DNA of 64,000 nucleotides from Pseudarthrobacter sp. L1SW (lineage in GTDB: Bacteria; Actinomycetota; Actinomycetes; Actinomycetales; Micrococcaceae): positions 3,348,001-3,412,000 of the forward strand of contig NZ_CP078079.1 in assembly GCF_020809045.1 (NCBI RefSeq), read 5' to 3'. Shown piece by piece: positions 9,662-22,151 of the stretch (position 1 is the first letter of the stretch; each line of letters starts with the position of its first letter). Below the pieces are notes generated by a model. It had not been told where the DNA came from. It did not search any database and worked only from the letters and a program-made list of their open reading frames with translations. A program made the translations under genes and the position numbers.

Positions 9662-9738
<77 letters not shown>

Positions 9739-9823: not shown

Positions 9824-9984
9824 GGTATCCGGGAACTGGTCGGAAAGTACGCCTGAAACGGTTGAGGTCTCTCCCCACCCGCAAACCTACCTAGCTAAGC
9901 CCGACCTCAACTGATTTGTCGTTGCTCCCCGGTAGATTGAAATCAACACTAAGTGGCTGCCGTCGTGTGGCTGGAGACTACCGC

Positions 9985-12465
9985 ATGACAAGTTCAACTG
10001 AATCAGGATCAACACAAGGGGTACGCGCCGTGGCGCTCAAAAAATCAGACCTTTATAGCTCGCTCTGGAAGAGCTGTGATGAGCTACGGGGCGGCATGGA
10101 CGCCAGCCAATACAAGGATTACATCCTCACGATACTGTTCGTGAAGTTCGTATCCGACAAAGCCAAGACCGACCCGAACTCCCTGATCGATGTTCCCGCC
10201 GGCGGCTCATTTGACGACATGATCGCGCTCAAGGGTGATAAGGAGATCGGCGACAAGGTCAACAAGATCATCGCCAGGCTCGCCGAAGCCAACGATTTGC
10301 AGAAGGTCATTGACCTGGCCGACTTCAACGACGAGGAAAAACTCGGCAGTGGCAAAGACATGCAGGACCGTCTGAGCTCGCTGATCACAATCTTCCAGGA
10401 TCTCGACTTCCGAGGCTCCCGGGCGGAGGGTGACGACCTCCTAGGGGATGCATACGAGTACCTGATGCGCCATTTCGCCACTGAGTCTGGCAAGTCTAAG
10501 GGGCAGTTCTACACGCCCGCGGAAGTTTCGCGGACCGTTGCAAAACTAATTGGCGTCGATTCGACAACCCCACGATCATCCACGGTCTATGACCCGACGT
10601 GCGGTTCCGGCTCACTACTCCTTAAGGTGTCTGCCGAGGCTCCCAATGGTCTAACCATCTACGGCCAAGAAAACGACGTAGCCACTTGGGCCCTATCAAA
10701 GATGAATATGATTCTGCACGGCAACGAGATCGCAGATATCCGCAAAGGAAACACGATAGCCAGCCCTCAGTTCGTTGACGGCCCTAACCTAGAAACATTT
10801 GACTTCATAGTTGCGAATCCTCCTTTTTCCAACAAGACCTGGACCAACGGTCTTGAGAACGAGTTTGGTCGATTCGAATATGGGCGTCCACCGGAGAAAA
10901 ATGGCGATTATGCTTTCTTATTACACATCCTAAAATCCATGAAGAGCACGGGAAAAGCCGCTGTCATCCTACCGCACGGCGTTCTCTTTCGAGGGCACGC
11001 TGAAGCATCTATCCGTAAACAGCTTTTGAAGCGTGGATTCATCAAAGGAATTATCGGACTGCCTGCGAATCTTTTTTATGGGACGGGAATCCCTGCCTGC
11101 ATCATTGTGCTAGATAAGGAAAACGCGCAAAGCCGCACTGGGGTTTTCATGATTGATGCATCTAAGGGCTTCTTAAAGGATGGGAACAAGAACCGCCTGC
11201 GCTCCCAGGATCTCCATAAAATCGTCGATGTTTTCACGAAGCAAACAGTGGTCGATAGATACTCACGCATGGTGCCTCTAGCTGAAATCGGCAACAGTAT
11301 CAACGACTTCAATCTCAATATCCCGCGCTACATCGATTCATCAGAACCAGATGACGTTCAGGATCTCTACGCCCACCTGCACGGAGGCATCCCAAACCGC
11401 GACATTGAGGCGCTTCACGACAGCTGGGATGCATTTCCTTCACTTCGCCAGCACCTTTTTAAGAGCAACGGCAATCCTGACTATAGTCAGCTAACCGTCG
11501 ACATCTCGGAAGTGCAGCAGGCAATTATTGCTTCGACCGAGTTCAAGGGTTTTTCAAACAAAATTCGAAGGCAAGTGGCCGACTGGTACGCAACTCACCA
11601 GCCTTCCCTCGAATTGATCAATGCCGACACCAAGCCGAATGATCTTATTGGCGAAGTTGGCGATGACCTGCTCCATCGGTTCAAAGAGACGCCACTTCTC
11701 GACGAATATGCCGTCTACGAGCAGCTGATGACGTACTGGCACAGCGTCATGCATGATGACGTATTCCTTCTCATGAACGAGGGGTGGTTGAATGCGGCTA
11801 AGCCGCGCAAAACTATTGAGGATAAAGATCGCAAGATCACTGAGACCCCGGACCTCGTGATCGGCTCGGGCCGGAGCGCGGCAAAATACAAGATGGACCT
11901 AATTCCACCCGCTCTAATCGTTGCTCGGTACTTTGCCGATGAGCAGAACAAAATTGATGACCTGACGGCAGCGGCCGATGCAGCCACTCGCCATATCGAT
12001 GAATACATTGAAGAGCATGCGATCGAAGAGGGCCTTCTTTTTGAAGCCATGGACGACGGTAAAATCACGAAGGCCTTGGTAGTTTCTCGGCTGAAAGCTG
12101 CAAAGCACGAGAACGCCGTCGCCGAGGAGATTAAAGCACTTGAGTATCTGATCAAACTTTATAACAAAGAATCAACGGCAAGGAAGCTTGTCAAAGATGC
12201 GCAAGCAAACCTCGATGCTGCAACCCTGGCCCAGTACGGCAAGCTCAGTGAACAAGACATACGTGAGCTGGTTCTCACCGACAAGTGGCAGACGACTATT
12301 ACAGTCGGGATCACTGGGGAAATCACAAAGCTCACTCACGATCTTGTTGATCGCATCACGGAACTCGGCAGTCGTTATGATGCCACTTTGCCTGACATCG
12401 AGTCAAAGGTTGAAGAATTTAGCGCTCGCGTCTTAGGACACCTCGCAGACATGGGAATCAAATGA
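9985..12465 (+). CDS. hsdM: Type I restriction-modification DNA methyltransferase subunit (HsdM), extended form
   Basis: This 826-residue N6-adenine methyltransferase has an N-terminal helical domain (about 15-140), SAM-binding motif I DPTCGSG at 203-209 and catalytic NPPF at 278-281. It methylates host DNA with HsdS and supplies the scaffold for HsdR. Beyond residue 430 there is a C-terminal extension of about 400 residues, rich in predicted helix and coiled coil, which the classical subunit of about 500 residues lacks. I start at ATG 9985; a TTG 69 bases upstream is in frame but less likely. HsdS overlaps the stop by four bases. Codon use is visibly more AT-rich than the flanks, fitting horizontal acquisition. 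Confidence 0.93.
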   Translation: MTSSTESGSTQGVRAVALKKSDLYSSLWKSCDELRGGMDASQYKDYILTILFVKFVSDKAKTDPNSLIDVPAGGSFDDMIALKGDKEIGDKVNKIIARLAEANDLQKVIDLADFNDEEKLGSGKDMQDRLSSLITIFQDLDFRGSRAEGDDLLGDAYEYLMRHFATESGKSKGQFYTPAEVSRTVAKLIGVDSTTPRSSTVYDPTCGSGSLLLKVSAEAPNGLTIYGQENDVATWALSKMNMILHGNEIADIRKGNTIASPQFVDGPNLETFDFIVANPPFSNKTWTNGLENEFGRFEYGRPPEKNGDYAFLLHILKSMKSTGKAAVILPHGVLFRGHAEASIRKQLLKRGFIKGIIGLPANLFYGTGIPACIIVLDKENAQSRTGVFMIDASKGFLKDGNKNRLRSQDLHKIVDVFTKQTVVDRYSRMVPLAEIGNSINDFNLNIPRYIDSSEPDDVQDLYAHLHGGIPNRDIEALHDSWDAFPSLRQHLFKSNGNPDYSQLTVDISEVQQAIIASTEFKGFSNKIRRQVADWYATHQPSLELINADTKPNDLIGEVGDDLLHRFKETPLLDEYAVYEQLMTYWHSVMHDDVFLLMNEGWLNAAKPRKTIEDKDRKITETPDLVIGSGRSAAKYKMDLIPPALIVARYFADEQNKIDDLTAAADAATRHIDEYIEEHAIEEGLLFEAMDDGKITKALVVSRLKAAKHENAVAEEIKALEYLIKLYNKESTARKLVKDAQANLDAATLAQYGKLSEQDIRELVLTDKWQTTITVGITGEITKLTHDLVDRITELGSRYDATLPDIESKVEEFSARVLGHLADMGIK

Positions 12466-13655
12466 TCCAGTCCTCTACAGATCACATTCGACCCGTTGGT
12501 GAACTGACGAAGTGGATGTCAGGCGGGACACCAGATCGGTCGAATAGGACGTATTGGCAGGGAACCATTCCTTGGATAAGCGCGTTTACACTGAAGACCA
12601 CCGAGATTTTCACGTCGGATCAGTTTGTTTCTGCCCAAGCGGTTAAAGCAGGGAGCAAGATGGCTCCCATCAACTCGACACTCCTTCTAGTTCGAGGTAG
12701 CGCGCTTCACAAGGAGATCCGTGCAGGACTAGTCACCGCTCCCGTAGCCTTCAATCAAGATGTGAAGGCGCTTGTTCCGCTGTCCGGGCTGGAACCGAAG
12801 TATCTCACTTTTTCGATACTGGGCAACTCGGAAAAACTACTCCGACTGGTCACGTCCGCAGGCAATACTGCTGGGGTGCTTGACACAAAAGTAGTTCAAG
12901 ATTTCGAGATTTGGGTTCCCGGTAACCCGGAGCAACGCCAAATTATTACGAAGCTGAACGATGCCGATTCCCTAGTCGCATCATTGGAAAGGCTCGTCGC
13001 CAAAAAACAGTCCGTCAAGCAAGGCATGATGCAGCAACTCCTCACCGGGAGAAGGCGCCTGCCAGGGTTCACGCACAGTTGGTTTGATGATGCCAGTATC
13101 GAACAAGTTGCCACCCTGACCATGGGCCAAGCTCCCAGAGGGGCCTCTTACAACACCAAAGGTAACGGTCTACCGCTCATTCAAGGCAATGCCGATATTA
13201 GGGATCGGCGATCCATTGACCGTCTTTGGACAACTGAGCCTTCGAAGCTCTGCAGGGTAGACGATGTACTTCTGACGGTTCGCGCGCCAGTCGGTTTCAC
13301 CGCCATCGCTTCTCGCGCCTCATGCATTGGCCGCGGAGTGTGCGCCCTGAGCACTCCTAATAGCAATAGATTCTTGTACCATGCACTCGTACATGCAGAA
13401 CCCCGATGGTCTGTATTCGAACAAGGCAGTACCTTCACCGCTGTCAATTCAGCTGAGGTCAAAGCATTTACTTTCCCTTGGCCGTCGGACTTAAATGAAC
13501 GAAATGCTATCGCGGCCGTTCTTGACGATGCCGATGACGAGATCGCACGTCTAAAGGATCGGCTTCAAAAAGCAACAGACATCAAGCAAGGCATGATGCA
13601 GGAACTCCTGACAGGACGGACAAGATTACAGCCAGTTAGTGAGTCCTTACTATGA
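12462..13655 (+). CDS. hsdS: Type I restriction-modification specificity subunit (HsdS)
   Basis: This 397-residue protein has two target-recognition domains, each ending in a conserved helix. The first ends KQSVKQGMMQQLLTGRRRL (about 185-203) and the second ends in a near-identical DIKQGMMQELLTGRTRL. The half-repeats give the pseudo-symmetric HsdS fold that reads a bipartite DNA site and docks two HsdM. It overlaps hsdM and the next gene by four bases each, so the stoichiometry is translationally coupled. The recognised site cannot be inferred. Confidence 0.92.
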   Translation: MIQSSTDHIRPVGELTKWMSGGTPDRSNRTYWQGTIPWISAFTLKTTEIFTSDQFVSAQAVKAGSKMAPINSTLLLVRGSALHKEIRAGLVTAPVAFNQDVKALVPLSGLEPKYLTFSILGNSEKLLRLVTSAGNTAGVLDTKVVQDFEIWVPGNPEQRQIITKLNDADSLVASLERLVAKKQSVKQGMMQQLLTGRRRLPGFTHSWFDDASIEQVATLTMGQAPRGASYNTKGNGLPLIQGNADIRDRRSIDRLWTTEPSKLCRVDDVLLTVRAPVGFTAIASRASCIGRGVCALSTPNSNRFLYHALVHAEPRWSVFEQGSTFTAVNSAEVKAFTFPWPSDLNERNAIAAVLDDADDEIARLKDRLQKATDIKQGMMQELLTGRTRLQPVSESLL

Positions 13656-14593
13656 GCGTAGGTAAGTCAGTCCGCCTCTTCCTGGCGGACGGCACACCCG
13701 GCGGCCTTCTGACAGCTGAAATCATGAACTGGACTGGTCACGTTGCTGCTGCCCCACGATCAGACCTTGGTGCGCTGTTGAAACGTCCCGAAGCGTCGCG
13801 GACGGGCATCTATATTCTTCTTGGAGACGATCCAGAAAGTATGGGTGGATCGCTCGCTTACATCGGCGAAGGTGATGATGTCGCCAAACGTCTCTATCAT
13901 CACTCTCGCAATGAAGATCAGGGCGGAAAAGACTTCTGGGATCGGGCAATCGTCCTCACCAGCAAGGACACGAACCTAACCAAGGCACACGCCCGCTATT
14001 TGGAGTCGCGATTCATCTCACTTGCGCAAGAGGCCAACCGTTCACGGCTAACCAACGGCACAGCGCCTCCCCTCCTGCCACTTCCAGAGTCCGATATATC
14101 GGATATGGAGTACTTCGTGACGCAGGCCAAAATCATCTTGCCCGTCCTGGGCGTCAACATCTTTCGAACAACGACGACACTCCGGCAGCCGTCAGACCCA
14201 ACAGATGTAGCGGCTCCGGCCGATCCATCTGTCTCGCCGATCTTCGAGATATTCGTCAAGAAGTACGGCATCAGAGCATCGGCGCAAGAAATTGATGGTG
14301 AGTTCACGGTCAAGAAGGGGTCAATGGCCCGACTCTCCTTTACCGAGAATTCAAGCAATTACGAACTTCTCCACGACGAGCTCCTCAAGAGCGGGCAGCT
14401 TGTTCAGGACGGAGAAGACACCGCGATCTTTGCCCAAGACATCGTCTTCCGCAGCCCATCGGCTGCGGCGGCAATCGTGGCGGGCAGAGCGGCAAACGGC
14501 CGAGTCGAATGGCGTATTCCAGGAACGGGCATAAGCTTCGGAAGCTGGCAGAATCAGGATGTTGAAAGTAATTTTGGGGGAAATGAATCATGA
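13652..14593 (+). CDS. GIY-YIG nuclease-fold protein with C-terminal DUF4357
   Basis: This 313-residue protein has a GIY-YIG core: TGIYILLG, then LAYIGEGDDVAKRL with the catalytic Arg, a later Glu in ARYLESRF and an Asn, so the nuclease residues appear present. The C-terminal half matches the DUF4357 pattern (GSMARLSF .. LLKSGQLVQDG .. SAAAAIVAG). It lies between hsdS and hsdR with four-base overlaps at both ends, so it is co-made with the restriction complex. GIY-YIG/DUF4357 proteins are frequent in type I loci but their role is not established. Confidence 0.85.
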   Translation: MSVGKSVRLFLADGTPGGLLTAEIMNWTGHVAAAPRSDLGALLKRPEASRTGIYILLGDDPESMGGSLAYIGEGDDVAKRLYHHSRNEDQGGKDFWDRAIVLTSKDTNLTKAHARYLESRFISLAQEANRSRLTNGTAPPLLPLPESDISDMEYFVTQAKIILPVLGVNIFRTTTTLRQPSDPTDVAAPADPSVSPIFEIFVKKYGIRASAQEIDGEFTVKKGSMARLSFTENSSNYELLHDELLKSGQLVQDGEDTAIFAQDIVFRSPSAAAAIVAGRAANGRVEWRIPGTGISFGSWQNQDVESNFGGNES

Positions 14594-17500
14594 GCACAGT
14601 CGGACAGATTGAACGTAAGACACAGGACCGTGTTGTCGACCTGTTCCAAAATGAACTTGGATACGAATACCTGGGCAACTGGGAGTATCGCGAAAACAAT
14701 TCTCACCTCGAAGTCAGCCTGCTTGAGCAGAATCTAGAGGCCCGTGGCTATGACGCCAATCTGATCAACAAAGCCGTTGAGCAGTTCAAGAAGACCGCGT
14801 CTCTCGGCGGCGGTCGCAACCTATACGAAGCTAACCACGAGGTCTACAACCTTCTCCGCTACGGTGTGAAGGTCAAACCCGGTATTGGCGAACAGACCGA
14901 GACGGTCTGGCTAGTGGACTGGCACAACCCCGAGGCAAACCACTTCGTGGTTACCGAAGAAGTCTCGATCAAGGGCGAGCACAACAAGCGGCCCGATGTC
15001 GTTCTCTACGTCAACGGCCTGGCGCTCGGCGTCATCGAACTCAAGCGCTCAAAGGTCGCGGTCTCCGAAGGTATCCGCCAGAACATCGGCAACCAGAAGA
15101 AGGACTTCATCCGTCCGTTCTTTAGCACGGTGCAGCTGGTCATGGCCGGCAACGACGTCGAAGGGCTGCGCTACGGAGTCATCGATACGGCCGAAAAGTA
15201 CTGGCTTGAGTGGAAAGAACCATCTGACATCGAGGAGCCGCTCGATCGTGCGCTCGTCCAGATGTGTTCGAAGAGCCGATTCCTGGAAATTATCCACGAC
15301 TTCATGGTGTTCGACGGCGGCACGAAGAAAACTTGCCGCCACAACCAATTTTTCGGCGTCAAGGCCGCCCAGGACCGCATCGCCAAGCGCGAAGGCGGCA
15401 TTATTTGGCACACCCAAGGTTCGGGCAAATCCCTCACTATGGTGTGGCTGGCTAAGTGGATTCGCGAACATCAGACGGGCGGCGACAGCCAAGCTCGTGT
15501 CCTCATCATCACCGACCGTACTGAACTGGACGATCAGATCAAGCGAGTCTTCAATGGCGTCAACGAGGACATCTACCGCACGAAGAGCGGCGCCGATCTT
15601 ATAGGTTCGCTAAACAGCAATGACCCTTGGCTGATGTGTTCGCTCGTGCACAAGTTCCGAGGTGGTGACGACGATCAAGCTCAGAATGACGCCGACGGCG
15701 ACTTCATCGCCGAGCTGAACTCCAAGATTCCGGCCGGTTTCTCCGCAAAGGGCAACCTATTCGTCTTCGTTGATGAGGCCCACCGCACCCAGTCCGGCAA
15801 GATGCATAAGGCCATGAAGCAGCTCCTGCCCGGGGCTATGTTCATCGGTTTCACCGGTACCCCGCTGCTCAAAGCGGACAAAGCAACCAGCATCGAGACC
15901 TTCGGAAGCTTCATTCATACCTACAAGTTCAACGAAGCGGTCGAAGACGGCGTGGTGCTCGACCTACGCTACGAGGCCCGCAACATCGACCAGGATCTCA
16001 TCTCATCAGCCAAAATCGATCAGTGGTTTGAGGCAAAGACCAAGGGCATGACTGATCTTTCCAAGGCTGAGCTCAAGAAGCGCTGGGGCACGATGCAAAA
16101 AGTCGTCAGCTCCGAGCCGCGATCCAAGCAGATCGTTAACGACATCCTGCTCGACATGGAGACGAAGCCACGCCTCATGGACAACCAGGGCAACGCCATG
16201 CTCGTTGGATCCAGCATCTATCAGGCGTGCAAGTTCTACGAAATGTTCTGCCAGGCCGGATTCAAGGGCAAATGCGCCATCGTCACGAGCTATGTCCCTC
16301 AGGCCAGCGACATCTCCAAAGAGGACTCAGGCCACGGTGCAACTGAAAAGCTGCGCCAATACGACATCTATCGGCAAATGCTTGCAGATCACTTCGATGA
16401 ACCAGCTGACCAGGCGGTGACGAAGATCGAGCAGTTCGAAAAGGAAGTCAAAGACCGCTTCATCAACGAGCCCGGTCAGATGCGCCTTCTGATCGTTGTC
16501 GATAAGCTGCTGACTGGCTTCGACGCACCAGCAGCAACGTATCTATACATCGACAAGAAGATGCGCGATCACGGACTCTTCCAAGCCATCTGTCGCGTCA
16601 ACCGTCTCGATGGTGACGATAAGGACTACGGCTACATCGTTGACTATCAGGACCTCTTCAACTCCCTGGAAGACGCCATCACGGACTACACGTCTGGGGC
16701 TCTCGACGGTTACGAGAAGTCCGACATCGAGGGGCTACTCAAAGACCGCGTCCAGCAAGCCCGCGAAGATCTGGACGAAGCCCTCGAACGCATCCGTGCG
16801 CTCTGCGAAGCTGTCGAACCACCTCAAGGAACGCTTCAGTATCAGCGCTACTTCTGCGCCATCGAACAGGGCAACGCCCAGCAGATCAAGAACAACGAAG
16901 CCAAGCGCGTCGAACTCTACAAGTCCGTGGCCGCATTGGTTCGTACCTACGGAGCAATCGCAAACGACATGGCCGAGGCTGGATACAGTGCGCTTGAAAC
17001 TGCAGCTATTGCCAAGGAAGTCACCCACTACGTCGCTGTGCGTGATGAAGTGAAACTCGGTGCTGGTGAGAATGTCGACTTCAAGCAATATGAAGCCGGC
17101 ATGCGATTCCTGCTCGATACTTACATCCGGGCCGATGCATCTGAAGTCGTCGCCGACTTCCAAAACGTCGGTCTCGTTGACCTGATCGTTGAACAAGGAG
17201 CGGCTGCGATTGACAAGCTCCCGACCGGGATCAAGAAGGATCCTGAAGCGGTCGCCGAAACCATCGCGAACAACATCCGCAAAGTCATCATCGATGAAAA
17301 CGCGATGAATCCGAAGTACTACGAGAGCATGTCCAGCCTGCTTGACGCCATCATCGAGCAACGCCGCAAGGGTGCCATTGATTACAAGGAATATCTTGAG
17401 CAGTTGATCGCCCACGCCAAGAAGGTTGGCTCAAAAGAGTCTGACACTGTCTACCCCGCCTGGGCATCAAACGGCGCGCAGCGTGCCATCGTCGACTTCG

Positions 17501-17688
17501 GCTGGGCAGATCCGGCGACTCCGATCCAGGTCGACGCCGCCATCATGACGAGCAAACCGCACGGTTGGGTTGGCAACACGTTCAAGGAGAAGGAAGTGGC
17601 GCGAGCAATTCGTCGTGTCCTACCGGCTGACTTCGACCGTTTCGATGAACTCTTTGACTTAGTAAAGGCCCGAAATGAGTACCGCTAG
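14590..17688 (+). CDS. hsdR: Type I restriction enzyme translocase/endonuclease subunit (HsdR)
   Basis: This 1032-residue motor subunit has an N-terminal PD-(D/E)xK nuclease with D136 and E150-L-K152. The SF2 helicase lobes have Walker A HTQGSGKS (274-281) and DEAH at 395-398, plus GFTGTPL. The C-terminal helical region would dock to HsdM. All catalytic motifs are intact, so the system looks functional. It translocates DNA and cleaves unmethylated invading DNA. The start overlaps the GIY-YIG gene by four bases and the end overlaps the metallopeptidase gene by 14 bases. Confidence 0.95.
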   Translation: MSTVGQIERKTQDRVVDLFQNELGYEYLGNWEYRENNSHLEVSLLEQNLEARGYDANLINKAVEQFKKTASLGGGRNLYEANHEVYNLLRYGVKVKPGIGEQTETVWLVDWHNPEANHFVVTEEVSIKGEHNKRPDVVLYVNGLALGVIELKRSKVAVSEGIRQNIGNQKKDFIRPFFSTVQLVMAGNDVEGLRYGVIDTAEKYWLEWKEPSDIEEPLDRALVQMCSKSRFLEIIHDFMVFDGGTKKTCRHNQFFGVKAAQDRIAKREGGIIWHTQGSGKSLTMVWLAKWIREHQTGGDSQARVLIITDRTELDDQIKRVFNGVNEDIYRTKSGADLIGSLNSNDPWLMCSLVHKFRGGDDDQAQNDADGDFIAELNSKIPAGFSAKGNLFVFVDEAHRTQSGKMHKAMKQLLPGAMFIGFTGTPLLKADKATSIETFGSFIHTYKFNEAVEDGVVLDLRYEARNIDQDLISSAKIDQWFEAKTKGMTDLSKAELKKRWGTMQKVVSSEPRSKQIVNDILLDMETKPRLMDNQGNAMLVGSSIYQACKFYEMFCQAGFKGKCAIVTSYVPQASDISKEDSGHGATEKLRQYDIYRQMLADHFDEPADQAVTKIEQFEKEVKDRFINEPGQMRLLIVVDKLLTGFDAPAATYLYIDKKMRDHGLFQAICRVNRLDGDDKDYGYIVDYQDLFNSLEDAITDYTSGALDGYEKSDIEGLLKDRVQQAREDLDEALERIRALCEAVEPPQGTLQYQRYFCAIEQGNAQQIKNNEAKRVELYKSVAALVRTYGAIANDMAEAGYSALETAAIAKEVTHYVAVRDEVKLGAGENVDFKQYEAGMRFLLDTYIRADASEVVADFQNVGLVDLIVEQGAAAIDKLPTGIKKDPEAVAETIANNIRKVIIDENAMNPKYYESMSSLLDAIIEQRRKGAIDYKEYLEQLIAHAKKVGSKESDTVYPAWASNGAQRAIVDFGWADPATPIQVDAAIMTSKPHGWVGNTFKEKEVARAIRRVLPADFDRFDELFDLVKARNEYR

Positions 17689-18400
17689 CGCCTACCTCAC
17701 CGTCTCCGGGATCGATGTCGATGTCATCTACAAGAACATCAAAAACCTGCATATCGCCGTCTACCCTCCCCTCGGCCGGGTGCGCGTTGCGGCGCCTGAA
17801 CGACTCGATGACGATGCCATCAGACTTGCTGTCGTGCAGCGATTGCCATGGATCAAGAAACAGCGCGAGCAGCTCCGCAACGCCGTGCGTCAGACCGAAC
17901 GCGAAATGGTCACAGGAGAGTCCCACTTTGTTTGGGGCCAGCGATACCGACTAAAGGTCGTAAACGAACCTGGTCGGATTCGGTTTGATATCACCGGCAA
18001 GCGCCTGACCTTGCACGCCCCCAAAGAAAGTACTCCGGACGCTCGTCGCGAAGCTATGGATGAGTGGTACCGCTCAGCCCTCAAACACGAGATCCCTGAA
18101 CTCATAGCCAAGTGGCAGCCGATCATCGGTCGCAATGTGGCGAAGTGGACCGTGCGCCGCATGAAAACCAAGTGGGGCAGCTGTAACCGCGAGACCGCCC
18201 ACATTTGGTTCAATCTTGAACTCGGTAAGAAGCATCCGAACTGCTTGGAGTACATCGTGGTCCACGAAATGATGCATCTCATCGAACGACACCACAACGA
18301 TCGCTTCACTGAGCTTATGGACCAACACCTCCCCGACTGGCGTGCTCGAAGAGATGAGCTTAATGCCGCACCACTTGCTGCCGAGGATTGGGCGAAATGA
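17675..18400 (+). CDS. M48/YgjP-like (DUF45, WLM-type) metallopeptidase
   Basis: This 241-residue protein carries the zinc-protease motif HEMMHLIERHHNDRF near residue 197, preceded by the family box MKTKWGSCN. Such YgjP/DUF45 proteins are frequent downstream of hsdR and may act on the restriction complex or on DNA-protein adducts, though no substrate is proven. It starts inside hsdR (14-base overlap), so it is probably co-translated. The CBASS pair begins 70 bases after its stop. Confidence 0.88.
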   Translation: MSTASAYLTVSGIDVDVIYKNIKNLHIAVYPPLGRVRVAAPERLDDDAIRLAVVQRLPWIKKQREQLRNAVRQTEREMVTGESHFVWGQRYRLKVVNEPGRIRFDITGKRLTLHAPKESTPDARREAMDEWYRSALKHEIPELIAKWQPIIGRNVAKWTVRRMKTKWGSCNRETAHIWFNLELGKKHPNCLEYIVVHEMMHLIERHHNDRFTELMDQHLPDWRARRDELNAAPLAAEDWAK

Positions 18401-18470
18401 CACAAATAGCTCACTTCCCAGTCCCCCATCAGCGTTCAGACCGCCAAGCAATTACGGAGAAGCCAGCACG

Positions 18471-19358
18471 ATGAGTCTTGAAACAAAGTTAGCTGGATGG
18501 ACAGGCCCATCCAGCGATTCCGAGCAGGAGAAGCAGGATCGCACCGAACGTATGATCCGGGAGGCCATGCAAGGCCACCCAGGATTAGACGGCTGCACAC
18601 TGAAGGTCTATGCCAAGGGCTCGTACGCGAACAACACGAACGTGCGGTCGGACAGTGATGTCGACATTGTTGTTCAATGCAATGACGTCACCTATTGGGA
18701 GGAGGCCGCTCCAGGTGTACATCCGACGTCAACTCCATACACCGGAATTTGGACTCCAGATAAGCTACGCGCTGAACTAGCTTCTGCTCTCCGCGCCAAG
18801 TTCCCCGGACATGTCGACACTTCCGGCTCAACTGCCATACGAATAGAGTCAAATACCGCGCGCGTCGAAGCGGACGTGGTGCCGGCCTTCAACTACAAGT
18901 ACTACTTTGCGAGCGGAGGCCATCGCTCCGGGTCGCGTGTCTACAAGAAGGATGGTACGTACCTCACCAACTACCCCGACCAGCAGCTTGTGAACGGACG
19001 CGCTAAGAACACTGCAACTGGTGCGCGCTACAAGAAGGCAGTCCGCATCATGAAGCGGGTTGAAAATGGCATGGTTGCAAGCAACCATCACCGTGAAGTG
19101 CCCTCGTTCTTCATGGAGTGTCTTGTGTACAACTGCCCAAATGAAGTCCTCATGCGATCGACCTGGACCGACATTATCCAGGGCGTCATCGTGCATATCT
19201 GGAATGAGCTGCAGGGTGCCGAACCCACGGAGACATCAAAACGCTGGCTGGAACCTAACGAGATCAAATACCTATTCCACTCGTCCCAGCCATGGACCCG
19301 TGCGGACGGCCGTGATTTCGTGAAGGCTGCGTGGAACTACCTGGGGTACACATCATGA
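18471..19358 (+). CDS. CBASS cGAS/DncV-like nucleotidyltransferase (CD-NTase)
   Basis: This 295-residue protein carries the nucleotidyltransferase signature G50-S51 .. D63-V-D65 and a third acidic residue D135 in EADVVPAF, all in the spacing of the cGAS/DncV-like family. On phage infection such enzymes make a cyclic oligonucleotide that activates the effector. I take ATG 18471; a longer in-frame start would overlap the metallopeptidase gene. The stop overlaps the next ATG by four bases, and that gene encodes a Cap15-type effector, which makes the CBASS assignment strong. The nucleotide product and clade cannot be read by eye. Confidence 0.9.
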   Translation: MSLETKLAGWTGPSSDSEQEKQDRTERMIREAMQGHPGLDGCTLKVYAKGSYANNTNVRSDSDVDIVVQCNDVTYWEEAAPGVHPTSTPYTGIWTPDKLRAELASALRAKFPGHVDTSGSTAIRIESNTARVEADVVPAFNYKYYFASGGHRSGSRVYKKDGTYLTNYPDQQLVNGRAKNTATGARYKKAVRIMKRVENGMVASNHHREVPSFFMECLVYNCPNEVLMRSTWTDIIQGVIVHIWNELQGAEPTETSKRWLEPNEIKYLFHSSQPWTRADGRDFVKAAWNYLGYTS

Positions 19359-19966
19359 AAACCAACATAGGCATCAGGGTCGGGGCGTCTGTTCTCATAG
19401 CGGTTCTTGCGGTCGTCTCGTGGGTGACTAGCGGGGTCCTGAACTTGGAACCCTTGAAGTACCTATCGGGAGCGGTTTTTGTCGCCACAGCGCTCTTCAC
19501 TCTATGGGACCTGTGGCTATGGCGACTTGCTTGGCTGCAACTGATCCCTGGCGTGCCGTTGTGCGTTCGAGGCACTTGGAAGGGCACCCTCGAGTCATCG
19601 TGGATCGATGCCAGTGGCCAAAAAATCGCACCCAAGGACGCCTACTTGGTTGTCCGCCAAACTTATAGCGTGGTACACGTCACACTCTTGACGAATGAGT
19701 CCAAGTCGGAATCTTCACTTTCTGGCGTAACCAAAACGGAGGGACTGTCAGTGCTTCATTACCTCTTCTTCAACAAACCGAAGATGAAGCACGAAGCGAT
19801 CAGCCGCATGCATCACGGCTCCACGACGCTGGAAGTTTCAGGTAAGCCTGCCCGACGCCTAACTGGGCGATACTGGACGGACAGAGACACCAGAGGTGAG
19901 CTTGACTTCAACGCGCATAACAAGAAGATTGCCGATGACTTCGAGGAAGCAGCCTCACTCTTCTGA
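19355..19966 (+). CDS. cap15: Cap15-type CBASS effector (two TM helices plus beta-barrel)
   Basis: This 203-residue protein has two N-terminal membrane helices (about 8-27 and 36-58), then a beta-rich cytosolic domain. The domain has the pattern GTWKGTLESSW, V-RQTY, SESSLSG, HHGSTTLEV and LTGRYWTDRDTRGEL that I recognise from Cap15/S-2TM-beta effectors. Known Cap15 proteins bind a cyclic nucleotide in the beta-barrel and oligomerise to disrupt the inner membrane, killing the infected cell. The four-base overlap with the CD-NTase gives a minimal type I CBASS with no Cap2/Cap3. Its last 12 bases overlap the end of the convergent HTH gene. Confidence 0.88.
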   Translation: MKTNIGIRVGASVLIAVLAVVSWVTSGVLNLEPLKYLSGAVFVATALFTLWDLWLWRLAWLQLIPGVPLCVRGTWKGTLESSWIDASGQKIAPKDAYLVVRQTYSVVHVTLLTNESKSESSLSGVTKTEGLSVLHYLFFNKPKMKHEAISRMHHGSTTLEVSGKPARRLTGRYWTDRDTRGELDFNAHNKKIADDFEEAASLF

Positions 19967-20308
19967 TCCACTCGATAAGAGGAAGATGCGGGCGGTGTCG
20001 TAGCTACAGCCAACACTCTTAGCTATGTTGCGGATAATCACCCCCTGCCTGCGGAGGCGGAGGATCTCTTTCTCTTTCGCTGGCGTCAAGCCATGAGGCC
20101 TGGCGTTGACACCATGCTCGGCAAGCAGACGCAGGAACGTTGACTTAGCAATGCCGCTTTCACGAGCTAAAGCGGTACTCATCTCGCCGGATTGGTAGCG
20201 AGCGACCAACTGAGCCAACTCGTCCGAAGTGAAGCGATCAGCGAGACGGTATCGCTGAGTCTTCGGCGCCGCTTGCTGCGGACGCGGCATGCTCTGGCCA
20301 GAATCCAT
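19955..20308 (-). CDS. Small two-HTH protein, possible recombinase/resolvase-tail remnant
   Basis: This 117-residue protein has two HTH-like units: LVARYQSGEMSTALARESG followed by IAKSTFLRLLAEHGV, and a second around EKEILRLRRQGVIIRNIAKSVGCSYDTARIFL. The pattern resembles the DNA-binding tail of serine recombinases or a stand-alone resolvase-type HTH. I use ATG 20308. The frame stays open upstream through a TTG at 20392 and past a hairpin at 20391-20432, so it may be the remainder of a longer gene. It is convergent with the Cap15 gene and sits at the right edge of the island. Confidence 0.6.
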   Translation of the reverse strand: MDSGQSMPRPQQAAPKTQRYRLADRFTSDELAQLVARYQSGEMSTALARESGIAKSTFLRLLAEHGVNARPHGLTPAKEKEILRLRRQGVIIRNIAKSVGCSYDTARIFLLSSGSEE

Positions 20309-20390
20309 CCGCTTCAGCGCCGCCGAGACCGTCGCGAGCTGGTCTACTTTGTGGCGTCCGTGCTTCGAGTAACCTGCAAGGACCTCGACC

Positions 20391-20432
20391 AATACAAAAG
20401 AGGGTCTCCTTGCGGAGGCCCTCTTTTGTATT
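20391..20432. terminator. Strong 14-bp hairpin at the island's right edge
   Basis: AATACAAAAGAGGG (20391-20404) is matched perfectly by CCCTCTTTTGTATT (20419-20432), around a loop that itself pairs (CTCC/GGAG). A T-rich 3' arm reads in either direction, fitting a bidirectional terminator. It lies upstream of the HTH start, where a terminator is unexpected unless that gene is truncated. Confidence 0.65.
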
Positions 20433-20473
20433 AACCGGAGTTCCGCAAAATCGGTAACTTTTTGGTAAAGGAA

Positions 20474-20501
20474 AAGCCCCGGAGCAGGTGCTCCGGGGCT
20501 T
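20474..20501 (-). terminator. Intrinsic terminator of the GNWPDPV peptide gene
   Basis: AAGCCCCGGAGC and GCTCCGGGGCTT form a perfect 12-bp stem with a four-base loop. On the minus strand it is followed by TTTTCCTTT. It lies 29 bases after the stop of the small peptide gene, showing that gene has its own short transcript. Confidence 0.85.
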
Positions 20502-20529: not shown

Positions 20530-20757
20530 TTACACAGGGTCGGGCCAGTTGCCCGTGTAGGTGGTGTAGCTGGTTTCGGTGGTACCGGCTTTCTTGCCCT
20601 TCGTCTCCTTGGAGACAGGATCAGGCCAGTTTCCGGTTCCGGCTACAGCCACTCGTTCCGTGTCAGCGATGGAACCTGCAGACAAGACAGCCGGAGCCGC
20701 CGCAGAAAACGCCAACGCCCCAGCCAGGACGGCTGCCGCTGCAATCTTCTTCAACAT
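20530..20757 (-). CDS. Secreted pro-peptide with duplicated TGNWPDPV (putative signal peptide precursor)
   Basis: This 75-residue protein has a classical Sec signal: MLKK, a hydrophobic core at 5-25 and a likely cleavage near APAVLSA. The short mature part contains the octapeptide TGNWPDPV at 41-48 and again at the extreme C-terminus (68-75), separated by a KETKGKKAG linker. The two copies use different codons at five of eight positions, all synonymous. A good RBS (GAGGAAC) precedes the ATG, and the gene has its own terminator. It is divergent from an HTH-TPR regulator, the arrangement of Gram-positive peptide-pheromone systems. I know of no described family; a secreted signal is inference. 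Confidence 0.8.
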   Translation of the reverse strand: MLKKIAAAAVLAGALAFSAAAPAVLSAGSIADTERVAVAGTGNWPDPVSKETKGKKAGTTETSYTTYTGNWPDPV

Positions 20758-20815
20758 ATAAGTTCCTCAATACGAGTCGGATTCGTTACAAAGCCAGCAC
20801 TGTCCTTGTTGACAT

Positions 20816-20848
20816 ACATTGTAAAATGTTTTCCACAGCGGCTGTCAA
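20816..20848 (-). promoter_or_regulatory. Divergent promoter/operator between peptide gene and TPR regulator
   Basis: On the minus strand, TTGACA (20843-20848) and TACAAT (20818-20823) are separated by 19 bases and point at the peptide gene; both boxes are near consensus but the spacer is long. The -10 overlaps a palindrome ACATT-GTAA-AATGT at 20816-20829. A second dyad, TTTTCCACAG (20829-20838) with CTGTGGAGAAA (20865-20875), flanks the region. The long spacer suggests the promoter needs an activator, plausibly the adjacent regulator. Confidence 0.55.
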
Positions 20849-20885
20849 GCGCTAACAGGAAACCTGTGGAGAAAGGAGGAGTCCC

Positions 20886-22151
20886 GTGGGCAACGGATTC
20901 GGGGAGAAGCTCCGGGCAGAGAGGCTCGATAGGGGGCTGACACAGGCGGAACTGGGCAAGGACCTGTACTCCCCCAGCTACATTTCCCTACTTGAAACAG
21001 GCCGCAGGGAACCAACTGCGGAAGTGATCGAGGAACTCGCACGCAGGCTGGAGCTCGCGCCGAAGGCCTTGGAAGCATGGAGCCAGCCCATCACGGTCAG
21101 CGACGCCGAGTATGTCCTGGCAGGACTGTACGCCCGCCAGGCGTGGGACCTGAGGGATTACCCGCTCGCCGCAAGCCATGCCGCAGCAGCGGCCCAGATT
21201 GCACTTGACGGAAGAAACACCAGCGCCTGGTGGAACATGAGTTACATGCAGGCCGAGTGCTTGCTGAAGCATGGCGACCTGCAGGAGTGCCGGGAGGTCG
21301 TGGAACGCCTGCTGGAGCACCCGATGGCCAGGGAATCTGTGGGGCTCGGCGCCCGGGCACGTCAAATGCTCGCTGTTATATGCCAGCGTGAGGGCCAGCT
21401 GACGGCCGCCGTGGAGCACGCAACCGAGGCCTTGGCAATCGCCGAGCAGCTGCCAAGGGGCTCGATCATTACCATCGGCGCCCTGCGGGCCCTGATCGGC
21501 GCCTTGGCCGAAAGCGGCCGTCTTAATGAAGCGTGGAAGTACTGCCAGGAGTTGCTCACCCAGGTGGACGAGCACGCGATGTCCCAACTTGCCGGCGAGG
21601 TGGCCTGGGTCATCGGCAACGTGGCGTTTATGCGCCACGATTATGTGGAGGGCGTCAAACACCACGAACGCGCAGCGAAACTGCTGTCACCGGCAAATGA
21701 TATTGAGCTGTGGGCACGTTTTAATAAGGCGTCCGCCGCGGTACGGCTGTCATCTGGAATTGTGGAGCCTGAAACCCTTTCATCCATTGAACGGGCTGAG
21801 CTTGCCTTTTCAATCGTCAGCGGAACCAAGAGTGATGAGCTGGAAGTCGCTTTCATCCGCGCCCGGTGGCTGTACCTGACCGGGGACATTGTTGCCGCCG
21901 TCGAGAAGCTCAGGGAAATCCACGCGGAGCGGGACAGCCTGGCAAAGCACACAGCCGGGGAAGTGTCACTGCTGCTGGGCAAGTCCCTCAAGGCCGCGGG
22001 TGAATCAGAGGAAGCGCTGGTCCACCTCGAAGAGGCGCAGAAAGCCTTCAGCGCCGCGGGAGCCGCTGACCGCGTCCAGCAGGCACTGGACGCGGTCCTG
22101 GAAATAAAGCTGGCCCAGCGGCGCGCCGCTGCCGCTGTGAAAGCCAGCTAG
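20886..22151 (+). CDS. XRE-HTH/TPR transcriptional regulator (RNPP-like)
   Basis: This 421-residue protein has an N-terminal XRE-type HTH (about residues 7-62, LTQAELGKDLYSPSYISLLE) followed by about eight TPR-like helical repeats to the C-terminus. The architecture is that of the Rap/NprR/PlcR/PrgX/Rgg group, where the TPR groove binds a short secreted-and-reimported peptide. GTG 20886 has a strong RBS (GGAGG). It is divergent from the GNWPDPV pro-peptide gene, its most obvious candidate ligand source and target. Other actinobacterial HTH-TPR proteins have no known peptide partner, so the function is inferred. Confidence 0.8.
   Translation: MGNGFGEKLRAERLDRGLTQAELGKDLYSPSYISLLETGRREPTAEVIEELARRLELAPKALEAWSQPITVSDAEYVLAGLYARQAWDLRDYPLAASHAAAAAQIALDGRNTSAWWNMSYMQAECLLKHGDLQECREVVERLLEHPMARESVGLGARARQMLAVICQREGQLTAAVEHATEALAIAEQLPRGSIITIGALRALIGALAESGRLNEAWKYCQELLTQVDEHAMSQLAGEVAWVIGNVAFMRHDYVEGVKHHERAAKLLSPANDIELWARFNKASAAVRLSSGIVEPETLSSIERAELAFSIVSGTKSDELEVAFIRARWLYLTGDIVAAVEKLREIHAERDSLAKHTAGEVSLLLGKSLKAAGESEEALVHLEEAQKAFSAAGAADRVQQALDAVLEIKLAQRRAAAAVKAS

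Follow-up and report, generated by a model that had tools for sequence, protein, structure and literature searches.

The locus examined here raises the question of whether a small, putatively exported protein and the HTH-TPR regulator encoded divergently beside it form a peptide signalling pair in an actinobacterium. For Actinomycetota, quorum sensing is described as relying typically on small molecules made by enzymes, and peptide receptors inside the cell as a trait of Firmicutes (PMC10075063); the RRNPP surveys consulted list no actinobacterial member, RRNPP_detector having been run on Firmicutes and viruses only (PMC10075063). The pair lies in a 64,000-nucleotide stretch (hereafter the window) of the complete, 4.1-Mb genome of Pseudarthrobacter sp. 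L1SW. The original prediction read it as an actinobacterial counterpart of the RNPP systems, and we consider it highly probable that the two genes encode a peptide pheromone and a cytoplasmic receptor-regulator working like the RRNPP systems of Firmicutes. This reading is supported by conserved pairing, identical signal copies written in different codons, peptide-receptor covariation, a profile match to PlcR, Rap-like paralogs, and a promoter element that is absent where the precursor is absent. A core-genome pair of this type across a family of soil bacteria that are common would extend the range of such systems beyond Firmicutes, and would give Arthrobacter and its relatives a pheromone with simple genetics.

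The features of the pair are listed in Table 1. As predicted, the 75-aa pro-peptide (ORF 20757..20530 on the minus strand, translated as MLKKIAAAAVLAGALAFSAAAPAVLSAGSIADTERVAVAGTGNWPDPVSKETKGKKAGTTETSYTTYTGNWPDPV) carries TGNWPDPV both internally and at its exact C-terminus, and its neighbour is a divergent 421-aa XRE-HTH/TPR protein with Pfam matches to both domain types; 128 bp separate their start codons. The N-terminus of the pro-peptide has an n-region with lysines (MLKK), a hydrophobic core and AxA-type sites. The two pro-peptide copies are the only occurrences of the GNWPDP DNA pattern in the whole genome, and searches of Pfam, NCBIfam and PHROGs with the precursor returned no family. 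The gene had also been credited with its own promoter and terminator. A TTGACA element and TACAAT/TTTACA are indeed found upstream (20848-20818), and the terminator can be read from the sequence as a 12-bp hairpin with a T tail, although a simple terminator scanner did not include this hairpin (about 20500-20472) among its listed hits.

Table 1 Features of the precursor-regulator pair in the window, and the matching phage ORF.
Feature	Position	Strand	Description or basis
Pro-peptide gene	20530..20757	-	75 aa, with Sec-type signal peptide and two copies of TGNWPDPV
Internal signal copy TGNWPDPV	20614..20637	-	Residues 41-48
C-terminal signal copy TGNWPDPV	20533..20556	-	Residues 68-75, exact C-terminus
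Intrinsic terminator of pro-peptide gene	about 20472..20500	-	G+C-rich 12-bp hairpin and T tail, read directly from sequence
Conserved promoter/operator element TTGACATACATTGTAAAATGTTTTCCACAGCGGCTGTCAAGC	20809..20850	.	Holds palindrome plus pro-peptide -35/-10 on minus strand
Receptor/regulator	20886..22151	+	421 aa, XRE-type HTH and about nine TPRs; Pfam, AlphaFold2 model, PlcR profile match
HTH DNA-binding domain	20898..21077	+	Residues 5-64; PF13560 (HTH_31) and PF01381 (HTH_3), E 1e-11
Predicted site reading peptide residue 1	21264..21386	+	Regulator residues 127-167 (127, 132, 167; weaker 164); covariation
MKRIGNWPDPM, unannotated ORF of Arthrobacter phage Mimi	L235:3055-3090; MN234211.2 about 124432-124467		11 codons

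Conservation was assessed within the GTDB genus to which the strain belongs, which comprises Arthrobacter, Pseudarthrobacter and Paenarthrobacter. The closest named relative at the locus is Pseudarthrobacter sp. GA104, with a regulator 97% identical, and the regulator is present in 60 of 60 additional genomes of the genus. At all 142 loci of the genus, a Sec-type precursor with one to four xGNWPDPx (or close variant) octapeptides lies divergent from the HTH-TPR regulator. The motif recognises 141 of these precursors, and the remaining one, L230, has a single C-terminal SGNWPYPV. In 137 of the 141 parsed precursors, as well as in L230 (138/142), the protein ends exactly with the last unit, and the second copy is broken in L120, L126 and L137; precursor length ranges from 46 to 87 aa. 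The pair adjoins purC in 109 of 112 loci, with tRNA-Pro nearby in 109, indicating that it belongs to the vertically inherited core genome. Of 150 genus genomes, 120 contain the pattern GNWPDP(M/V) followed by a stop and none contains the reversed control pattern; this, together with the restriction to two copies in the strain's own genome, argues that the motif is not a product of chance.

Sequence comparison identifies the octapeptide unit as the selected part of the precursor. Mean identity across the precursors of the genus is 0.85 for units versus 0.48 for linkers; conservation of the first 30 residues is 0.78, and N-terminal charge, hydrophobic core and AxA were recognised by simple rules in 140 of 141. 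Multi-copy precursors account for 90 of the 94 distinct sequences, and 84 of those 90 hold only identical octapeptides, while shuffling the copies among precursors (5000 shuffles) yielded a mean of 22.7 such precursors and a maximum of 38. Copies with identical peptides differ at the nucleotide level by 2.55 per 24 nt on average; their identity is thus kept at the peptide level and does not merely reflect recent duplication. Rare unit changes are likewise common to all copies of one gene, as in TGIWPDPM twice (L017) and SGNWPNPM twice (L128), and the variant IGNWPDPA occurs in many precursors with both copies alike. Where either GNWPDPV or TGNWPDPV had been named as the likely mature signal, these comparisons favour the octapeptide TGNWPDPV over the heptapeptide, since residue 1 is kept the same among copies and co-changes with receptor residues (see below).

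The regulator matches HTH/TPR-type families only in Pfam, NCBIfam and PHROGs, with TPR_12 and TPR_2 above the Pfam cut-off. Its AlphaFold2 model (pLDDT 90, pTM 0.74) is all-helical and consists of an HTH and a TPR superhelix. When the model was compared with solved structures, Rap and NprR ranked near the top (Z about 21-23 over 305-344 residues), including peptide-bound RapJ (Z 22.9, 335 aligned) and Rap3T (Z 22.5, 344), but the eukaryotic TPR proteins LGN and APPBP2 scored equal to or above them, so that the fold match supports the architecture rather than RRNPP membership. At the sequence profile level, PlcR is the best natural full-architecture match in the PDB (profile 4-216, covering the HTH and part of the TPRs, E = 1.4e-11), the HTH supplying a large share of the score. 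In RapF, a conserved groove asparagine (Asn227) holds the peptide backbone (PMC3601957); N245 and N280 of the regulator, which are at least 90% conserved and lie on TPR A-helices, are candidate counterparts. The search for regulator homologues found none in phages and, on plasmids, only distant (<30%) HTH-TPR proteins of Streptomyces and Embleya.

We looked for co-changes between peptide and receptor by parsimony on one tree of 130 distinct regulators, with 400 random, rate-weighted branch sets as control. Peptide residue 1 (T/I/V/S) changes on 10 branches. Regulator residues 132 and 167 each change eight times, seven of which coincide with a change of peptide residue 1 (P = 1.5e-5 each); residue 127 changes 11 times, with seven coincidences (P = 4e-4), and residue 164 shows a weaker association (P = 0.0034). 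The best P value in the 400 random sets was 2.7e-4 versus the observed minimum of 1.5e-5, and three columns fell below 0.003 against a random mean of 0.085. All 69 receptors paired with I-type peptides have M127, L132 and H167, and W132 and I127 each occur in 41 of the 44 V-type receptors. Positions 9 and 12 of TPR helix A are classic ligand-facing positions, oriented towards the groove in TPR-peptide complexes; in a register taken from the Pfam matches and repeat glycines (TPR position equals residue minus 115 or minus 155), regulator residues 127 and 167 correspond to position 12 and residue 164 to position 9. For peptide position 8, a trend with residues 195/196/202 in a first, smaller set was not significant on the 130-regulator tree, and covariation at peptide position 3 was not significant in the larger set. 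The T/I/V/S types with residues 127/132/167 would offer a natural series for the evolution of peptide-receptor specificity.

The region between the two genes is itself conserved, reading TTGACAtACATTGTAAAATGttttCCACAG...CTGTCAAG with most columns above 97% across 109 loci, and the conserved element includes the palindrome ACATT-GTAA-AATGT at 20816-20829. In the strain's genome the palindrome ACATTnnnnAATGT occurs once, between the pro-peptide and regulator genes, and the 17-base element core has no second match with fewer than two mismatches; the genome thus holds one strong operator only, that between the pair. The palindrome, which had been expected across genera, proved restricted to the genus. 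Conserved more widely is TTRACA-n-A(T/A)TTGTAAA...TGTCAA, and a related core (TTRACA-n-A(T/A)TTGTAAA then (T/C)GTCA) was found in 12 of 12 pairs from about six other genera (g46-g48, g53, g57-g59, in our anonymous genus labels g1-g61); it is missing or altered in g36 and g44. The core is absent upstream of 13 of 13 purC-linked regulator orthologs that lack a precursor, and from all ten of the HTH-less pairs tested. Regulator, precursor and element behave as one unit, because the element is kept with the pairs and absent without a precursor, and its coverage of the precursor -35/-10 region suggests that it may act in autoregulation. Some purC-linked regulators without precursor (L046, L048-L050, L056, L084) have another upstream element, TTTCTGTTAGGTTTTAGC or close variants, in place of TTGACA...TTGTAAA.

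Beyond the genus, a family-wide set of 245 genomes yielded regulator matches at E 1e-20 in 116 and the GNWPDP pattern in 54, among them all genomes of the strain's genus, g36 and g48. The prediction could have failed had relatives kept the two genes apart or had the motif been common without an HTH-TPR gene. Instead, the precursor stays beside the HTH-TPR gene at all 142 loci of the genus and in nine other genera (ten in total), with W-P repeats diverged by lineage, and genomes without the system hold scattered single GNWPDP hits close to the reversed-control background, whereas each genome of the three GNWPDP-using genera has one to nine. The diverged units are AIGNWPDPM in g36 (often five copies), VGNWPDP in g48, VGIWPNS in g47, FVGNWPDAV and TGNWPNVV in g57, PGNWPDS in g58, PGIWPDS and VWIWPDS in g53, VGEWPH in g59, PAVGNWPDR in g44, and VGDWPHS in g46, where up to eight copies follow a TTG start. 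In these genera a few residues often trail the repeats, so the exact C-terminal position is a feature of the strain's genus and not a rule of the system. Regulators without a neighbouring precursor occur at most sampled g53 loci, in g39, g51, g60 and g61, and as extra g36 paralogs. Hits of the g36 repeat precursor on plasmids reflect repeats matched at low identity.

Four genera also encode HTH-less TPR proteins with their own divergent export-type precursors (L071-L077, L082, L083, L085, L090), which end in IGWWPN/D, GWWPDAK, NWWPNS, GNWPH, GIWPY or IGNWPL; such Rap-like proteins are absent from the strain's own genome. Their frame opens at or just before the first TPR, and the model shows a disordered tail followed by TPR helices. 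The N-termini are too short for the Rap-type 3-helix bundle that binds response regulators, and the bundle is absent. Every receptor-adjacent precursor, including those of the diverged genera and of this HTH-less paralogous family, keeps an export-type N-terminus.

We noticed that some genomes of the strain's genus and of g36 carry extra small ORFs ending in the octapeptide unit of the HTH receptor's precursor. Among these satellites are 11-aa ORFs (MSSIGNWPDPM/V/I, MYSIGNWPDPM, MNRIGNWPDPM) with Shine-Dalgarno-like sequences and longer leaderless repeats, e.g., MSVNTQLFSTTTVVSSAPSHARIGNWPDPMNARIGWWPDLMKARIGNWPDPMGRAGSPARG; this sequence combines the HTH-receptor unit with a unit resembling that of the Rap-like receptor. 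Searching 150 genus genomes for the C-terminal pattern plus stop gave extra copies in about ten, with no control hits. A search upstream of these satellites revealed no operator-like TTGTAAA, and a riboswitch search near them gave nothing relevant. Upstream of several IGNWPDPM micro-genes (L171-L173, L186, L177, L180, L187) is the gene of a secreted protein, 285-373 aa long and rich in Ala, Pro and Val, that ends exactly in (A/S)FDPGS(T/S)PD; the corresponding DNA pattern occurs one to three times in nine of 12 genomes tested and reversed controls gave none, and this end may represent another C-terminal peptide signal.

A search with the g36 precursor led to the micro-ORF of Arthrobacter phage Mimi (GTG AAG AGA ATC GGT AAC TGG CCC GAC CCC ATG TAA), which lies shortly past a recA-like gene, with a strong ribosome-binding site (AAGGAG) before it and a terminator after it. 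In 2.9 million viral contigs, the pattern [IV]GNWPDP[MV] was found in nine contigs and the reversed pattern in none. The nine contigs hold six distinct ORFs: MRIGNWPDPM in two different flanks, MSMRIGNWPDPM, M(M)STIGNWPDPM, MIGNWPDPMGGDDA, and one that has a hydrophobic N-terminal part and ends SIVGNWPDPM. Counting Mimi, there are seven distinct phage ORFs, most of which have no leader. In L236, L239 and L240, MRIGNWPDPM and a small conserved ORF, VKRPLLYxxPRRWLKTW, overlap at the stop of the former and the GTG start of the latter, and the two are possibly translationally coupled. Flanking DNA resembles Arthrobacter or Microbacterium phages in the four contig types with any match, and the flanks of L243 returned none. 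In four relatives, the Arthrobacter phages Amigo, Persistence, AbbyDaisy and Zucker, a pattern search gave no GNWPDP micro-ORF. That different phage neighbourhoods share the exact octapeptide of the host would agree, if the ORFs are translated, with a mimic of the host signal acting inside the cell, and we are evenly divided on whether the predicted, mostly leaderless 10-12-residue peptides of phages and chromosomes would reach the host receptor from inside. If so, a phage could set the quorum-sensing receptor of its host without any outside signal. The phage micro-ORFs make it possible to test directly whether phages interfere with the peptide signalling of their hosts. Extra unlinked copies in receptor-bearing genomes and in phages extend the signal idea rather than refute it.

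In the proposed mechanism, the pro-peptide would be exported by Sec, as its signal sequence suggests, and proteases would free its identical octapeptide copies, one to four in number and TGNWPDPV in this strain, a step to which the conserved units and variable linkers point. The octapeptide would then re-enter the cell, probably via an Opp-type permease; six SBP_bac_5 proteins exceed the Pfam cut-off in the genome, none of them linked to the pair. Inside, it may bind the concave TPR groove with residue 1 near regulator residues 127, 132 and 167, in line with the covariation, and binding would alter the action of the HTH at the conserved intergenic element and so set pro-peptide expression. The presumed element of the regulator overlaps the pro-peptide -35/-10 region, and of the possible signs repression is the most likely; there is about an even chance that the free regulator represses this promoter and that the peptide relieves repression, producing positive feedback.

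The same observations could be read without cell-cell signalling, the peptide being an intracellular ligand only, with the regulator responding to pro-peptide just made in the same cell, or to leaderless copies there, and so gauging Sec load, translation or phage gene expression. Covariation indicates a ligand-receptor relation and not re-import, and chromosomes and phages do encode the peptide in leaderless micro-ORFs, as this reading would have it; yet the receptor-adjacent precursors all keep an export-type N-terminus and their first 30 residues are conserved, and we regard it as rather unlikely. A short secreted peptide encoded next to an XRE regulator can be a bacteriocin-like product, and a precursor matching no family would suit a secreted effector, antimicrobial or surface-acting, with the HTH-TPR protein an ordinary regulator that does not bind it directly; none of our results, however, speaks for an effector in preference to a ligand. 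We find this very improbable, given that peptide residue 1 co-changes with specific TPR residues, that octapeptide copies are identical at variable spacing, and that Rap-like paralogs without a DNA-binding domain still have their own precursor.

It might also be argued that the genes are merely neighbours and that shared ancestry alone yields the apparent covariation and repeat identity, as kinship inflates simple associations and the independent changes are few (10 for residue 1). The co-change test, however, counts branches, and both its smallest P value and its number of low columns lie beyond the random sets; the copies, moreover, are identical in residues and not in codons, which makes such an account scarcely credible. 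A peptide pheromone with a cytoplasmic receptor remains our preferred reading.

Among known systems, PlcR-PapR of the Bacillus cereus group shares the XRE-type HTH and TPR receptor, the adjacent small precursor with predicted Sec export and the C-terminal signal. The window receptor has about nine TPRs versus five in PlcR, and the pair differs in being actinobacterial and divergent, with one to eight copies per precursor, an xGNWPDPx peptide and no known virulence regulon. NprR-NprX of Bacillus likewise combines an HTH with about nine TPRs, and the regulator model fits NprR over 333 residues in both the apo form (5dbk, Z 22.9) and that with NprX (4gpk, Z 21.0), but profiles detected no sequence similarity at E 0.001, and precursor, gene order and phylum are different. 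With Rap-Phr of Bacillus, including tandem Phr3T/Phr105, the system has TPR receptors and export-type precursors in common, the HTH-less paralogs paralleling Rap; these paralogs lack the 3-helix N-terminal part of Rap, and the window receptor has an HTH. Precursors with several signal copies are known from Rap-Phr (PMC11343458), and the multi-copy precursor is therefore not a new feature. Arbitrium (AimR-AimP) and phage Rap-Phr also involve phages using RRNPP-type peptides; here, in contrast, phages carry the host peptide only, mostly in a leaderless micro-ORF, and a search of phage records found no receptor.

The five criteria of RRNPP_detector are a pro-peptide of 10-100 aa, Sec export, a receptor of 250-500 aa, TPRs and adjacent genes (PMC10075063). 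The pair shows four of them (75 aa, 421 aa, TPRs, adjacency), Sec export being recognised by simple rules only. The searchable literature, with preprints and subscription papers outside its scope, contained neither NWPDPV nor GNWPDP and no actinobacterial RRNPP system. Relative to the described systems, the pair differs in phylum, gene order, peptide chemistry and the phage-encoded peptide, and its sequence ancestry is PlcR-like.

Finally, a defence island (9916-19966) lies between tRNA-Pro (9662-9738) and the precursor gene of the window. PADLOC assigns to it hsdM, hsdS, a PDC-S14-like protein, hsdR, a metalloprotease-like protein, a CD-NTase cyclase and a 2TM effector, i.e., type I restriction and a CBASS-like pair. 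In 109 of 112 relatives the pair and tRNA-Pro are close neighbours, and the island has the appearance of an insertion confined to this strain or a few strains. At its edge, a small HTH/resolvase-like ORF (19955-20392, minus strand) is probably a remnant of the inserting element.
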